Positions 4,872 through 10,920 of a stretch of 12,892 nt of DNA are shown in pieces. Positions within the stretch are counted from its first letter, which is position 1; the number at the start of each line of letters is the position of its first letter. The DNA is taken from positions 1 to 12,892 of the forward strand of contig JAGUXD010000033.1 of the NCBI GenBank assembly GCA_020062035.1, read 5' to 3'. This stretch comes from Candidatus Brocadiia bacterium. Its GTDB lineage: Bacteria > Planctomycetota > MHYJ01 > JACQXL01. The notes under the pieces were generated by a model. The model saw only the letters and a program-made list of their open reading frames with translations, made no database searches and was not told where the DNA came from. A program made the translations under genes and the position numbers.

Positions 4872-7334
4872 ATGAATTACTATATTACTTGGCGTAATCT
4901 GCCAGAAATGTGGCTTTTGTTTCTCGTTATCATCCCGACTGTTTTATTGTTCTCGTATCTTATTTACAGAAAGGAAAGAACCTCTGCCTCGTCTTCTGTT
5001 AAATTACTCCTGTCGTCATTTCGCTCTCTGGTTATTCTGATTTCTCTTCTCATTCTCTTTCAGCCGGTCGTAGTTACAGAAAAGCCTATCACTAAAGAAT
5101 CAATGGTTGTTCTTCTTGTTGACGATTCACTAAGTATGTCTTTTAAGGACAGGTATTCTCCCTCAGATGCGAAAGAGTTAACTAATCTGGGAATTTCCGG
5201 CACAAATCTGAGCCGAATAGAAATAGTAAATGCGGTTTTAGATAACCCTGAAATAGACCTGCTTAACCGACTCAAGAAGAAGGCAAAGATAAAAACATAC
5301 ACTTGTTCAGCCACGACAAAGCCATTTGAATGGTCCGCTGATAACGAGACCATAATAAAAGCCGAAGGGAATGGAACCGGTATTGGACAGGGAATACAGG
5401 ATGTCGTAAATGATATCGGCGGCGCATCCTGTGGTGGGATTATTTTACTCTCTGATGGGCAGAATAATTCAGGCGTTGAACCGCTTGATGTAATCCGCTC
5501 TCTTAAAGACCGAAGCATCTCTTTTCCTATATATACTATTGTCTGCGGTAATCCGCAAAGTCATAACGATATAGAAATCTCTGATTTATCCGCGCCAGAT
5601 GTTGCAACCGTTGCTGATATTGTTGATTTCCGTTTTACTCTTAAAGCAAGCGGTGTTTTTCGTAAGCCTATGAGAATTATCCTGTCTGAAAGAGGTGCGG
5701 ACGAACCGCAATTCCGAGAGGTCGCTGAAGAAACCATCAAACCCACGAAATTTCCCTCTAATACCACTCTTAAATACAAGCCAACTAATGTTGGAGAGTA
5801 TATTTATGAAATAAAAGTCCTGCCTTCTGAAGAAGAAACAATTTATGAAAATAATTATCTGGAACATCATCTCGTTGTTGTTGATAATAATATCAGCGTA
5901 TTATATGTGGAAAGTTATCCGCGCTGGGAGTATCGTCGGCTTAAGAATGCCCTTATTCGTGACCGGACAATGAAGACATCGGTCTTTCTGGTCTCTGCGG
6001 ATGCGGAGTTTCCGCAGGAATCATCACCCGCAATCCCACCGCTTATTCGGTTTCCTCCTGAAGCAAAAGACCTATTTTATTACGATGTGATTATCTGGGG
6101 TGATGTAAGTCCTGAATATTTAAGCCCTCAGCCGGAAAAGTTGCTTCATAATATCAAGAGATTTGTAGAAGAAATGGGCGGCGGCATTGCCTTTGTCTGC
6201 GGCGAAAAGTTTAATCCCCGCTCTTTCAGAAAGACCATCTTAACTGAACTTATCCCTCTCTCATTAGAAGACGATGACTATTTCTCAGGAAGTGAAACAA
6301 AAGAAATCTTTACTGAAGCATTCAGAATAAAATTAACCCCGGAAGGTTTATCTGATAGTATAATGCGATTAGAGGATAACCCTGTGGAAAATACTAAAGT
6401 CTGGGAAACATTGCCGGGCTTTTTCTGGTATTATCCATTTAAGAAACCCAAACCCGCGGCAAGGGTTCTGGCAGTCCATCCGATTGCCTTTGGTAAATTT
6501 GGACCGAGACCGATTATTGCTACGCAATATTATGGGGCTGGCAGAAGTTTTCTTATTACCTCTGATGAAACCTGGCGATGGTGTCAAATCAAAGGCGATA
6601 AGTATTTCTATACCTTCTGGGGCGAGGTAATCAGATTCTTGAGAGGCGGACGTCTACTCGGCACAAGAAAAGTCCACATCAGCACTGATAAACCAAAATA
6701 CCAACTTTCAGAAACAGCCAAAATCACTGCCAAAATATATGATAATGAATTCAGACCCCTCAAACAAAGTTCTTACACAGTATATCTGGAAACCTTTCCG
6801 CCGAAGGCGGATCTGCCGAATGCACAGGGGAAGCAAGAAAAAGCATCATCCGATTCGGAAAGCATTACTTCATTAGTCAAAAGAGATATAATCCTGAATC
6901 CTGTTCCTGATAAGGAAGGACACTACGAAGGTTCATATACCCCAGATAAGGTAGGCAAATATAAAATATGGAGCGAAACTTCAGAACCTGACATCTCCGC
7001 CGAAGGCACAGGGGAAGCAAGAAAAAACATCATCCGACATAAAAAAAAGGAGGTAAAAAGTTACGGCTTTTTCTCTATGCATTATCCTAAACTGGAATAC
7101 GAAAAGCCTCTTCCGAACGTTGCCCTGCTTAAGAAAATTGCAGAAGAAACTCAGGGCGCTTTTCTGAAACTTCCAGAAATAAACAAACTACCTGATATCG
7201 TCAAACCGGTGAGTGATGTGATTTATACTGAGACCAAAGAAGATGACCTCTGGGATACTCCGATAGTATTTTTATTATTCCTGATAATAATTTCTGCTGA
7301 ATGGGTCATCAGAAAGTTCGCCGGGCTGATATAA
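4872..7334 (+). CDS. membrane-anchored vWA-domain protein with glutamine amidotransferase-like region (BatA-like)
   Basis: A protein of 820 residues with two N-terminal membrane segments (about 13-32 and 52-69) and one near the C-terminus (about 797-815). A vWA domain starts at about residue 77, with the MIDAS motif DDSLS at 84-88 and SDG at 194-196. A class I glutamine amidotransferase-like fold follows (about 340-450; SVLYVESYPRWEYR, then YYDVIIWGDVSP and GGGIAFVCGE). A beta-rich region precedes the last membrane helix. This order is typical of large BatA-like vWA proteins in envelope operons. Amidotransferase catalysis is not expected, and the domain is probably a structural relative. It leads the five-gene block and probably works with the downstream ABC exporter. 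Residues about 642-661 and 709-722 are encoded by copies of one DNA repeat read in different frames, so both stretches look like insertions. It ends 187 bases before the ATPase gene. Exact role unknown. Confidence 0.88.
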   Translation: MNYYITWRNLPEMWLLFLVIIPTVLLFSYLIYRKERTSASSSVKLLLSSFRSLVILISLLILFQPVVVTEKPITKESMVVLLVDDSLSMSFKDRYSPSDAKELTNLGISGTNLSRIEIVNAVLDNPEIDLLNRLKKKAKIKTYTCSATTKPFEWSADNETIIKAEGNGTGIGQGIQDVVNDIGGASCGGIILLSDGQNNSGVEPLDVIRSLKDRSISFPIYTIVCGNPQSHNDIEISDLSAPDVATVADIVDFRFTLKASGVFRKPMRIILSERGADEPQFREVAEETIKPTKFPSNTTLKYKPTNVGEYIYEIKVLPSEEETIYENNYLEHHLVVVDNNISVLYVESYPRWEYRRLKNALIRDRTMKTSVFLVSADAEFPQESSPAIPPLIRFPPEAKDLFYYDVIIWGDVSPEYLSPQPEKLLHNIKRFVEEMGGGIAFVCGEKFNPRSFRKTILTELIPLSLEDDDYFSGSETKEIFTEAFRIKLTPEGLSDSIMRLEDNPVENTKVWETLPGFFWYYPFKKPKPAARVLAVHPIAFGKFGPRPIIATQYYGAGRSFLITSDETWRWCQIKGDKYFYTFWGEVIRFLRGGRLLGTRKVHISTDKPKYQLSETAKITAKIYDNEFRPLKQSSYTVYLETFPPKADLPNAQGKQEKASSDSESITSLVKRDIILNPVPDKEGHYEGSYTPDKVGKYKIWSETSEPDISAEGTGEARKNIIRHKKKEVKSYGFFSMHYPKLEYEKPLPNVALLKKIAEETQGAFLKLPEINKLPDIVKPVSDVIYTETKEDDLWDTPIVFLLFLIIISAEWVIRKFAGLI
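6797..6853 (+). repeat. intragenic dispersed repeat, copy 1 (longer form)
   Basis: TCCGCCGAAGG (6797-6807) is followed by 14 bases that complete a TCCGCC/GGCGGA hairpin and a CTGCCGAAT string, then a 32-bp block at 6822-6853. That block recurs at 7006-7037 with one mismatch (31/32). Here base 6822 is codon position 1, giving AQGKQEKASSD. The sequence lies inside the vWA gene in a region without recognisable domain features. Confidence 0.75.
6996..7037 (+). repeat. intragenic dispersed repeat, copy 2 (shorter form)
   Basis: TCCGCCGAAGG (6996-7006) runs directly into the 32-bp block at 7006-7037, without the hairpin-completing insert present in copy 1. Base 7006 is codon position 2, so the same DNA is read one frame off, giving GTGEARKNIIR. 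Conservation at the DNA level but not the protein level indicates a mobile or dispersed DNA repeat, not a duplicated protein motif. Confidence 0.75.
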
Positions 7335-7352
7335 TCAGTTGGAATCCGTCAT

Positions 7353-7461
7353 ATTAGCCACCAAAATAAGAACACAGAATACAGTCCCAGTGGGAAGAAT
7401 ACCCCGATGGACATCGGGGCTATATTCTGTATTCTTGTTTCTCTGTGTCTCTGTGGCTAAT
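7353..7461. repeat. MITE-like palindromic element, copy A (76-bp core 7365-7440)
   Basis: The outer termini are a perfect 9-bp inverted repeat, ATTAGCCAC (7353-7361) and GTGGCTAAT (7453-7461). Inside lies a 76-bp core (7365-7440) found again in inverted orientation at 8529-8604 with one mismatch (7391). Within the core, arms 7368-7384 and 7420-7436 are 15/17 inverted repeats, and CCCCGATG/CATCGGGG (7402-7409, 7412-7419) forms a perfect 8-bp hairpin. The right outer part contains CTCTGTGTCTCTGTGG, a string I recognise as common in short repeats of environmental genomes. There is no coding capacity. It fills most of the gap between the vWA and ATPase genes. Confidence 0.8.
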
Positions 7462-7466
7462 TTTTC

Positions 7467-7493
7467 TTGACAGCATCAGTGTCATAATATAAA
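7467..7493 (+). promoter_or_regulatory. sigma70-type promoter for the ABC ATPase gene
   Basis: A perfect -35 TTGACA (7467-7472) is followed after 15 bases by TATAAA (7488-7493). TAAATA at 17-base spacing is an alternative -10. Transcription would begin near 7500, leaving a leader of about 20 bases with no Shine-Dalgarno sequence before the ATG at 7522. The -35 begins five bases after the right terminus of repeat copy A, so the repeat separates the vWA gene from an independent promoter for the transporter genes. Confidence 0.55.
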
Positions 7494-7521
7494 TAAAAAC
7501 TCTCGTTATTTCTGCATTTGT

Positions 7522-8439
7522 ATGATACAAGTAGAAAACCTGACAAAGAAGTTTGGGAATGTTGCGGCAGTGGATGGAGTCTCTTTTAATGTTGAGAATA
7601 GAGAAATCGTGGGCTTTCTTGGCCCAAATGGTGCCGGTAAAACCACGACAATGCGTGTGCTGACTTCCTACCTTGCTCCTACTTCAGGCAGGGCAGCAGT
7701 CGCGGGTTTTGATGTAGTCAGAAATTCTTTAGAAGCCAGAAAACGAATCGGATATCTGCCGGAGAGCGTTCCTTTTTATCCTGAGATGCGAGTTCGGGAA
7801 TACCTCTCTTTTAGAGCCAAACTGAAAGCCGTTCCCAGAAAACAGAGAAAACAACGGCTTGACGAGGTCATGGAAAGATGCCGGGTAAAAGATGTGGAAC
7901 ATAAAATCATTGGACATCTCTCCAAGGGCTATCGTCAACGACTCGGACTGGCTGAAGCAATTATTCATAATCCACCTATTCTTATCCTTGATGAACCGAC
8001 GATTGGGTTAGACCCTGCACAGATTAGACAGACCCGCGAACTTATTAAAGAATTAGGACAGGACAAGACGGTTATTCTTTCTACCCATATTTTACCTGAG
8101 GTTGAAATGCTCTGTAACAGGGTAATCATTATTCACCAGGGTAAAATCGCGATAATGGACACCCTGAATAACCTCGTCAAAGACCAAAAGATAAAACTGG
8201 AAATCACAGGTAATATCAACGATATTACAGAGACACTAAAACAACTACCAGGCATAAAAAATATCTCTTTTACCCAGCAGGACTTATGGTATGTTGTTAC
8301 TATTGAATTATCAAACAATGAAGACATCAGGGACATTGTATATCAAAAGATAGTCCAGAACCAATGGGGTATTCGTGAGTTCAAAACCGAACGAACGACA
8401 TTGGAAGAAATGTTTATTAGAATAACCACAAGGGAGTAG
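7522..8439 (+). CDS. ABC transporter ATP-binding protein (GldA-type)
   Basis: A cytosolic ATPase subunit of 305 residues that would power the permease encoded next. Walker A is GPNGAGKTT (34-42), the signature is LSKGYRQR (133-140; a variant of LSGGQ usual in this subfamily), Walker B is LILDEP (154-159), and the H-loop histidine is H189 (STHIL). The C-terminal 80 or so residues form the extra domain seen in ABC-2 type exporter ATPases. The start MIQVENLTKKFG is the canonical family start, although no Shine-Dalgarno sequence precedes it. A near-consensus promoter lies just upstream. The gene is bracketed by inverted copies of one 76-bp element about 1.1 kb apart. The GldA-like assignment comes from its permease, GldG and DUF4340 neighbours. 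The substrate is unknown. Confidence 0.94.
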   Translation: MIQVENLTKKFGNVAAVDGVSFNVENREIVGFLGPNGAGKTTTMRVLTSYLAPTSGRAAVAGFDVVRNSLEARKRIGYLPESVPFYPEMRVREYLSFRAKLKAVPRKQRKQRLDEVMERCRVKDVEHKIIGHLSKGYRQRLGLAEAIIHNPPILILDEPTIGLDPAQIRQTRELIKELGQDKTVILSTHILPEVEMLCNRVIIIHQGKIAIMDTLNNLVKDQKIKLEITGNINDITETLKQLPGIKNISFTQQDLWYVVTIELSNNEDIRDIVYQKIVQNQWGIREFKTERTTLEEMFIRITTRE

Positions 8440-8517
8440 CGGGAAGAGTTTGAGAAACTCATCTTTCAGAGTGGTGTCTCAATAATCCGTTTCTACTATG
8501 TCTTCAGAACGAACAAG

Positions 8518-8524
8518 AAGGAGG
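8518..8524 (+). promoter_or_regulatory. perfect Shine-Dalgarno sequence stranded upstream of repeat copy B
   Basis: AAGGAGG is the strongest ribosome-binding sequence in the window. The nearest plausible gene start is 80 or more bases away (GTG 8605, ATG 8611), with the 76-bp repeat exactly in between. Removing the repeat would place this site 4 bases before the GTG and 10 before the ATG. I infer that it is the original ribosome-binding site of the permease gene. Confidence 0.6.
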
Positions 8525-8528
8525 GTGA

Positions 8529-8604
8529 AAACAAGAATACAGAATATAGCCCCGATGTCCATCGGGGTATTCTTCCCTCTGGGACTGTATTCTGTGTTCT
8601 TATT
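8529..8604. repeat. MITE-like palindromic element, copy B (inverted relative to copy A)
   Basis: Reverse complement of 7365-7440 with a single mismatch at 8578. In the sense of the operon transcript, arms 8533-8549 and 8585-8601 pair along all 17 positions, two of them G-U wobbles. In copy A's orientation those two positions are A-C mismatches. Inside is CCCCGATG/CATCGGGG (8550-8557 with 8560-8567). It lacks the ATTAGCCAC outer termini of copy A, so the mobile unit may be the 76-bp core. It ends directly at the GTG start option of the permease gene. Confidence 0.8.
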
Positions 8605-8610
8605 GTGATT

Positions 8611-9327
8611 ATGCGAAATATCTGGGTCCTAACTAAAAAGGAACTGGCAATTTATTTCTATTCCCCGCTGGCTTATGTCATTATTACCGCATTCCTATTA
8701 TTGTCAGGGTATTTTTTCTATCAATTTGTCGCAGGCATTGCTGATGCGACTGCCCTGAGATATGTTCTTGAATTCATCGGATTCATCTCGCTTATTATCT
8801 CGCCGATGATTACAATGCGGCTTTTAGCCGAAGAGAAAAAGTCAGGCACATTGGAATTACTTATGACTGCTCCTATCACAGAAACACAGGTGGTCGTCTC
8901 TAAATACATCTCCAGTTTATTATTCTTTATCGCATTAATTATGCCGACAGTGGCATATGTAATATTACTTATCTTCTGGGGAAAGCCGGATTTAGGAGCG
9001 ATTATCTGTGGTTATCTCGGACTTATCTGTCTGGCTGGGGTATTTTTGAGCATCGGGCTTTTTGTCTCTTCATTTACCTCTAACCAGATTGTTGCAGTAA
9101 TTATTACTTTTGTCATACTTCTGATTGGCTGGGTCATCGGATGGGCCGGAGAGTTTTTCAGGGAACAATGGTGGAAGGATATCTTTAAATATATTGGTTT
9201 CTTTGAGCACTTTGACGCCTTCAGAAAAGGGCTGATTGACAGCCGAGATTTCCTTTATTGTTTTTCTCTGATTATATTCTTCTTGTTTTTAACAGTTCGG
9301 ATAGTAGAATCAAGAAGATGGAAATAA
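8611..9327 (+). CDS. ABC-2 type permease (GldF-type)
   Basis: An integral inner-membrane permease of 238 residues with about six hydrophobic segments, the first starting near residue 20. It carries the family hallmark EEKKSGTLELLMTAP between the second and third segments, and opens with the expected MRNIWVLTKKELAIYF. It would form the channel energised by the upstream ATPase. I chose ATG 8611. An in-frame GTG at 8605, flush with the end of repeat copy B, would add two residues. Neither has a Shine-Dalgarno sequence at normal distance, because the perfect AAGGAGG lies upstream of the repeat. Translation may depend on RNA folding or coupling. The 3' end overlaps the next start codon by 10 bases (ATGGAAATAA), which indicates translational coupling. 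Length and motif fit GldF-like permeases well. Confidence 0.92.
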   Translation: MRNIWVLTKKELAIYFYSPLAYVIITAFLLLSGYFFYQFVAGIADATALRYVLEFIGFISLIISPMITMRLLAEEKKSGTLELLMTAPITETQVVVSKYISSLLFFIALIMPTVAYVILLIFWGKPDLGAIICGYLGLICLAGVFLSIGLFVSSFTSNQIVAVIITFVILLIGWVIGWAGEFFREQWWKDIFKYIGFFEHFDAFRKGLIDSRDFLYCFSLIIFFLFLTVRIVESRRWK

Positions 9328-10798: not shown

Positions 10799-10920
10799 GG
10801 AAATCATATCCGTCTCATGCCAGAGGTCATGTATACGGTCCCCGCAGGCGACCTCTGGCATCACAGACCCAGTGGGAAATAGGACCCCGAATACTTTCGG
10901 GGTTTGATATGACGGATTCC
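10799..10920. repeat. composite palindromic repeat between the GldG-like and DUF4340 genes (element C)
   Basis: Contains a 12-bp perfect stem, ATGCCAGAGGTC (10817-10828) with GACCTCTGGCAT (10850-10861) around a 21-base loop. CCCAGTGGGAA follows (10868-10878). An 8-bp hairpin ACCCCGAA/TTCGGGGT (10884-10891 with 10896-10903, loop TACT) comes next. It ends in ATATGACGGATTCC (10907-10920), whose exact reverse complement is at 7341-7354 beside repeat copy A. The order CCCAGTGGGAA then CCCCGA hairpin is the same as inside copy A. There is no coding capacity and no T-run for termination. It fills most of the 171-base gap. Confidence 0.65.

Follow-up and report, generated by a model that had tools for sequence, protein, structure and literature searches.

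A palindromic interspersed repeat between a Shine-Dalgarno-like motif and the start codon of an ABC-2 permease gene in a planctomycete genome

A noncoding palindromic repeat separates a perfect Shine-Dalgarno (SD)-like motif from the start codon of an ABC-2 permease gene in the window, the whole 12,892-nucleotide stretch of DNA that was analyzed. The reading we favor, at a rough probability of 0.6, is that a MITE-like repeat inserted recently between the permease SD and its start and has persisted chiefly through the low dependence of translation initiation on the SD in this lineage. The preliminary description suggested that the repeat may fold and hide itself from the ribosome, such that the SD still works. 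Such bridging is predicted to be loose, had no general pattern in our sample, and is not needed for tolerance, but it is possible at this locus.

Results

The permease gene (8611..9327, + strand) follows an ABC transporter ATP-binding gene (7522..8439, + strand), and the best NCBIfam matches of the two, both below cut-off, are GldF and GldA, respectively. Read directly, the bases upstream of the permease are AAGGAGG (8518..8524, + strand), GTGA (8525..8528, + strand), a 76-base repeat (8529..8604, + strand), GTG at 8605, ATT, and ATG at 8611, exactly the layout first described. Either GTG 8605 or ATG 8611 had been proposed as the start, and the ATG is the likely one. When orthologs were aligned around the permease start, with rows cut at the position of ATG 8611, five of them (G001, G002, G003, G005, and G006) had an ATG there, while the GTG, which as a start would add two residues, was not conserved. 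GTG 8605 may belong to the repeat's own end, as GTG also follows TTCTTATT in the copy on contig C98, and for that reason the ends of the window copy are uncertain by 2 to 3 bases. The second GTGA (8605..8608, + strand), which contains this GTG and is possibly part of the repeat's end, could alternatively form the right half of a 4-bp target-site duplication with the GTGA at 8525..8528 as its left half. The permease reading frame is intact.

The AAGGAGG motif is 86 nt from ATG 8611 in linear sequence, too distant for an SD, and no SD core was found at -20 to -4 of that ATG. With the repeat taken out, AAGGAGG would lie 6, 10, or 12 nt from ATG 8611, depending on whether GTGA is treated as a target duplication and on where the repeat ends, and we agree with the earlier proposal that deleting the element restores SD spacing. 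A count over 411 kb, both strands included, gave 53 occurrences of the motif, from which a chance hit within the 15 nt that precede the repeat is reckoned at about 6 in 10,000; at -18 to -4, the motif is present in 11 of 293 sampled genes of the window's genome. Because the motif is rare, is found at SD positions in those 11 genes, and would be 6 to 12 nt from the start without the repeat, it probably is the permease's original SD, cut off from the start by the repeat. Delivery of AAGGAGG by a third repeat was considered and rejected, as the 21-mer around it is unique in the 64%-complete genome even when as many as 3 mismatches are allowed. A promoter within the repeat that would make a leaderless permease mRNA was likewise rejected, as 7335-8650 gave only 9-of-12 matches, none of them on the + strand in a position to start transcription near 8611.

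The repeat is dispersed in the window's genome (G000), a fragmented Planctomycetota metagenome-assembled genome of 1.19 Mb on 211 contigs that is 64% complete. There are 11 matches at an E value of ≤0.001, the window copy included. Of the seven near-full-length copies, C80 has two, and C128, C98, C4, C142, and C162 have one each; a partial copy is on C50. The core, AAACAAGAATACAG...TTCTTA, spans 74 to 79 bp; six of the seven near-full copies have AAACAAGAATACAG on the left and TTCTTA on the right, and the C162 copy ends in CTCTTA. The window repeat is 97 to 99% identical to its closest near-full relatives. A second, inverted copy in the window (7362..7440, - strand), upstream of the ATPase gene, is 97% identical over 79 nt. 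Inspected copies were mostly intergenic, and one was inside another palindrome.

MITE-like and other palindromic interspersed repeats of bacteria are short, noncoding, and multicopy, with inverted ends. The window repeat is alike in each of these respects, with several dispersed noncoding copies that have inverted terminal arms. It differs in that the possible target duplication, GTGA/GTGA, is found at the window copy only, as no matching 4-base flank repeat was seen when the other copies were inspected by eye, and in that an Rfam search gave nothing at gathering score. No full-length copy was found in 58 relative genomes, a set with no genome of the same genus.

We note other repeats in the window. 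The second copy at 7362..7440 is nested in the arms of another palindrome, TTAGCCAC at 7354-7361 and GTGGCTAA at 7453-7460. By eye, the 18-base hairpin at the tip of the enclosing palindrome, CCCCGATGTCCATCGGGG, is also present in other settings in G002, G003, and G008, and in G008 (L042) a different palindrome clearly has it at its tip. An 820-amino-acid gene contains two copies of a 42-base repeat (6812-6853 and 6996-7037), 93% identical and in two different reading frames, and no further match to this repeat was found in the genome. Finally, a row of short palindromes seen by eye at 10814-10920 precedes a DUF4340 gene: TGCCAGAGGTC...GACCTCTGGCA, CCCAGTGGG, and CCCCGAA...TTCGGGG.

The repeat is predicted to fold stably as RNA. 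The predicted structure (8533..8601, + strand) is a stem in which 8533-8549 pair with 8585-8601 and which encloses a 7-bp hairpin at 8550-8567 and a 4-bp hairpin at 8574-8584. The prediction thus reproduces the stem drawn earlier, 17 bp long and with two G-U pairs; it runs from pair 8533-8601 to pair 8549-8585, with the wobbles at 8538-8596 and 8547-8587. Positions 8529-8604 have a predicted folding energy of -35.5 kcal/mol, and 8510-8640 has a z score of -3.89. Pairing probabilities came from six folding runs, in which three leader lengths were each folded at 37 and 15°C. Base 8540 was paired with a probability of 1.0, and the outermost pair, 8533-8601, varied from 0.27 to 0.93 with context; in the shortest context, other pairs extended toward the start. 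The extension pairs 8531-8603 and 8530-8604 had probabilities of only 0.00 to 0.07 across the six runs, against an earlier claim that the stem can be extended to 8530/8604. Because that extension is so improbable, the predicted looped-out spacing is 8 + 9, or about 17 nt to ATG and 11 nt to GTG, rather than the 11 and 5 nt estimated earlier. Mean unpaired probabilities over the six runs were 0.26 to 0.49 for the SD and 0.30 to 0.53 for the ATG, and the SD was mostly unpaired in the minimum-energy fold of the 131 nt from 8510 to 8640. As in a split ribosome-binding site, the linear distance between SD and start is too great, and a stable structure is predicted wholly between the two.

Conservation of the arrangement in close relatives, also expected of a split ribosome-binding site, was not found. 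Eight genomes yielded six orthologs of the same family or order for examination; G007 had no permease match, and a 33% match in G004 was taken as a paralog. The motif AAGGAGG was absent from the 120 nt upstream of the permease in all six (0/6), contrary to the prediction that homologs lacking the element would show the SD near the start, and the 58 relative genomes gave no full-length copy of the repeat. The empty site is a reconstruction, because the closest permease ortholog has 73% protein identity. In four of the six orthologs, the ATPase stop is ≤8 nt from the permease ATG or overlaps it. The other inserts at this junction are in two of the six relatives: the G003 junction is 87 nt with a TGTCATTGCGAG palindrome, and the G008 junction holds a PDDEXK_3 gene, a family also known as GxxExxY, followed by short repeats (L020 613-987).

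The window junction, 171 nt from ATPase stop to permease ATG, also holds one arm of a second palindromic repeat (8436..8496, + strand). The arm starts at the ATPase stop codon and matches at 93% over 8436-8490 and, to the other arm, at 79% over 8436-8496. The full palindrome of about 120 bp, on C155, ends 3 bases before folE. We note that two unrelated palindromes are found shortly before folE in two genera (L079 892-1012 and upstream of folE in L184), at 3 bases in G000 and, by eye, roughly 10 in G003. Between the two window genes, 8440-8610 is a 57-codon open frame, in frame with both and behind a TAG stop, as in 0.033 of shuffles. Readthrough of the ATPase TAG into a permease fusion is disfavored by the orthologs' ATG at the position of 8611 and because much of the junction derives from repeats.

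Palindromes near starts were surveyed in samples of four genomes that came to 975 kb: 524 kb from G000 (81 of its 211 contigs), 193 kb from G001, 93 kb from G002, and 165 kb from G003. Of the 20 contigs first taken from G000, 19 were selected because they had repeat matches and the other because it had a permease paralog; some G001-G003 stretches were also picked for matches, and the starts are mostly first-ATG guesses. Eighty-eight palindromes were kept as noncoding, 87 of them with a flanking gene; 56 were dropped as coding and more for weak folding or length. Where a palindrome had a gene on each side, the distance was 12 nt or less at 18 of 76 start sides, versus 17.2 if palindromes were placed at random within these gaps, and at 17 of 60 stop sides, versus 14.0. 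Thus, palindromes show neither a clear preference for positions next to starts nor a clear avoidance of them.

Bridging had also been put forward as a general way for palindromes to colonize initiation regions, and the survey did not bear this out. A 5-nt SD core ≤15 nt away on the far side was found at 2 of 21 start-adjacent palindromes and at 6 of 153 control flanks (P = 0.25), and a 4-nt core at 3 of 21 and 17 of 153 (P = 0.71). The 21 cases, 18 of which have genes on both sides, include L157 and five with the start at or inside the palindrome edge; the C155 folE palindrome is not in the survey table. An earlier pass on a smaller sample agrees (21 of 71 versus 17.3 expected; SD core at 2/24 versus 5/136). 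The two palindromes with a 5-nt core were the permease locus and L157 in G003, and L157 was rejected as a second SD-palindrome-start case, as its gene is a DDE transposase. An ATG beside a palindrome at L085 was set aside because, by eye, it is probably part of a repeat module.

Another copy of the repeat serves as a same-genome control. The C128 copy, which is identical at 73 of 74 bases, stops 3 nt short of the ATG of lysA (TIGR01048), and matches in four relatives begin at the same Met. Upstream of lysA, two of those relatives lack a 4-nt SD core, a third has AGGA at -14, and the fourth has GAGG at -11. No SD core was found in the 19 bases checked left of the C128 repeat, where a promoter-like TTGATA-17-TAAAAT was seen by eye. 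A near-identical repeat therefore adjoins the lysA start with nothing to bridge, and bridging is not needed for such a repeat position to exist.

SD sequences are used in this genome, by a minority of genes. Sampled G000 genes had a 5-nt SD core in 56 of 293 cases and a 4-nt core in 78, and an overlapping count found SD-like cores of 4 nt or more in 71 of 266 genes versus 41 after shuffling, hence the minority use; the motifs are enriched at -9 to -14. A promoter match was found for 40 G000 genes, and in 17 of these the -10 box ended 4 to 11 nt before the ATG, versus about 1.3 in shuffles, a leaderless spacing for part of the promoters. A published survey places the Planctomycetes with the phyla in which SD genes are few and leaderless and/or S1-type signals occur (PMC5397173).

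Discussion

How the permease came to have a repeat between its SD and its start is best explained by insertion and weak SD dependence. A noncoding palindromic repeat would have inserted between the SD and start of the permease gene, in an operon junction that has further inserts in two of six relatives, and we infer that the SD was there first and the repeat came later. The insertion would have survived mainly through the weak SD dependence of initiation in the lineage, as most sampled genes lack an SD core, part of the promoters have leaderless spacing, and the relatives' permease genes lack AAGGAGG. Permease initiation may thus be SD independent or weakly bridged; folding of the repeat may permit weak SD use across the stem but would not be what permits such insertions in general. 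Some observations count against this explanation. An AAGGAGG next to the repeat would seldom arise by chance, and the SD may be needed here, because the permease is operon internal and a scan of the + strand from 8424 to 8611 gave no promoter match. Moreover, the mostly unpaired SD of the 131-nt predicted fold would favor bridging, and the enrichment of SD motifs at -9 to -14 indicates that part of the genes use an SD.

Alternatively, the folded repeat might bring AAGGAGG near the start for normal SD pairing, a reading we consider unlikely but worth weighing. Phage precedent for it exists, as the preliminary description mentioned. In T4 genes 38 and 25, as set out in a review, the stretch between SD and AUG folds as a hairpin that shortens the spacing from 22 to 5 nt and from 27 to 11 nt, respectively, and bridging was tested by mutation in both genes and also by probing in gene 25 (PMC3014915). 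Like those genes, the permease locus has a hairpin-forming stretch between SD and start; unlike them, its shortening, from 86 to about 17 nt, is a prediction, and its insert is a dispersed repeat. The perfect SD left of the repeat, the 17-bp stem between, the absence of a nearer SD core, and the open SD of the 131-nt fold all agree with bridging. The 17-nt looped-out spacing, the near-zero probability of the pairs that would shorten it, and the partial pairing of SD and ATG argue against it, as do the lysA copy and the lack of significant SD enrichment at other palindromes. The fuller proposal, in which about 70 nt are looped out by the element's own hairpin and a preexisting SD stays functional, a bacterial chromosomal, repeat-derived counterpart of T4 genes 38 and 25, we hold slightly more doubtful still. 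In sum, a repeat that splits a probable SD from its start and is predicted to fold stably survives from the first account; its tight spacing, generality, and homolog prediction are not supported.

The E. coli thrS leader is a different case, with its hairpin upstream of the SD-AUG unit. Its likeness to the permease locus is a long hairpin within the ribosome's binding region: one article describes thrS as a split ribosome-binding site whose long hairpin, a standby-site module, the ribosome accommodates without unfolding (PMC3936740). Our literature search on repeats between SD and start found no on-topic paper, which does not show their absence in print.

It is improbable, though conceivable, that the insertion harms permease translation and that the population carries it as a mildly deleterious allele. 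The insertion looks recent, at 97 to 99% identity to the closest near-full copies, and the predicted stem is strong with the ATG partly paired, but the permease frame is intact and palindromes near starts were not depleted in the survey. Very unlikely is translational coupling, in which ribosomes ending a mini-frame (8525-8608) or the ATPase would reinitiate at ATG 8611: the close or overlapping ATPase stop in four of six orthologs and a mini-frame open through the repeat, with a UGA stop two bases before the ATG, speak for it, but the ATPase stop is now 171 nt away, the mini-frame would cross the predicted stem, and its GTG abuts the SD with a spacing of 0, which makes a poor start.

The permease locus is a natural case of a repeat between an SD and a start codon. 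With the lysA copy as a same-genome control, it makes ribosome skipping of a large hairpin testable. If the repeat did loop itself out, a mobile element would carry its own translational disguise. The survey suggests a plainer tolerance, in which SD-poor, partly leaderless genomes accept palindromes beside start codons.
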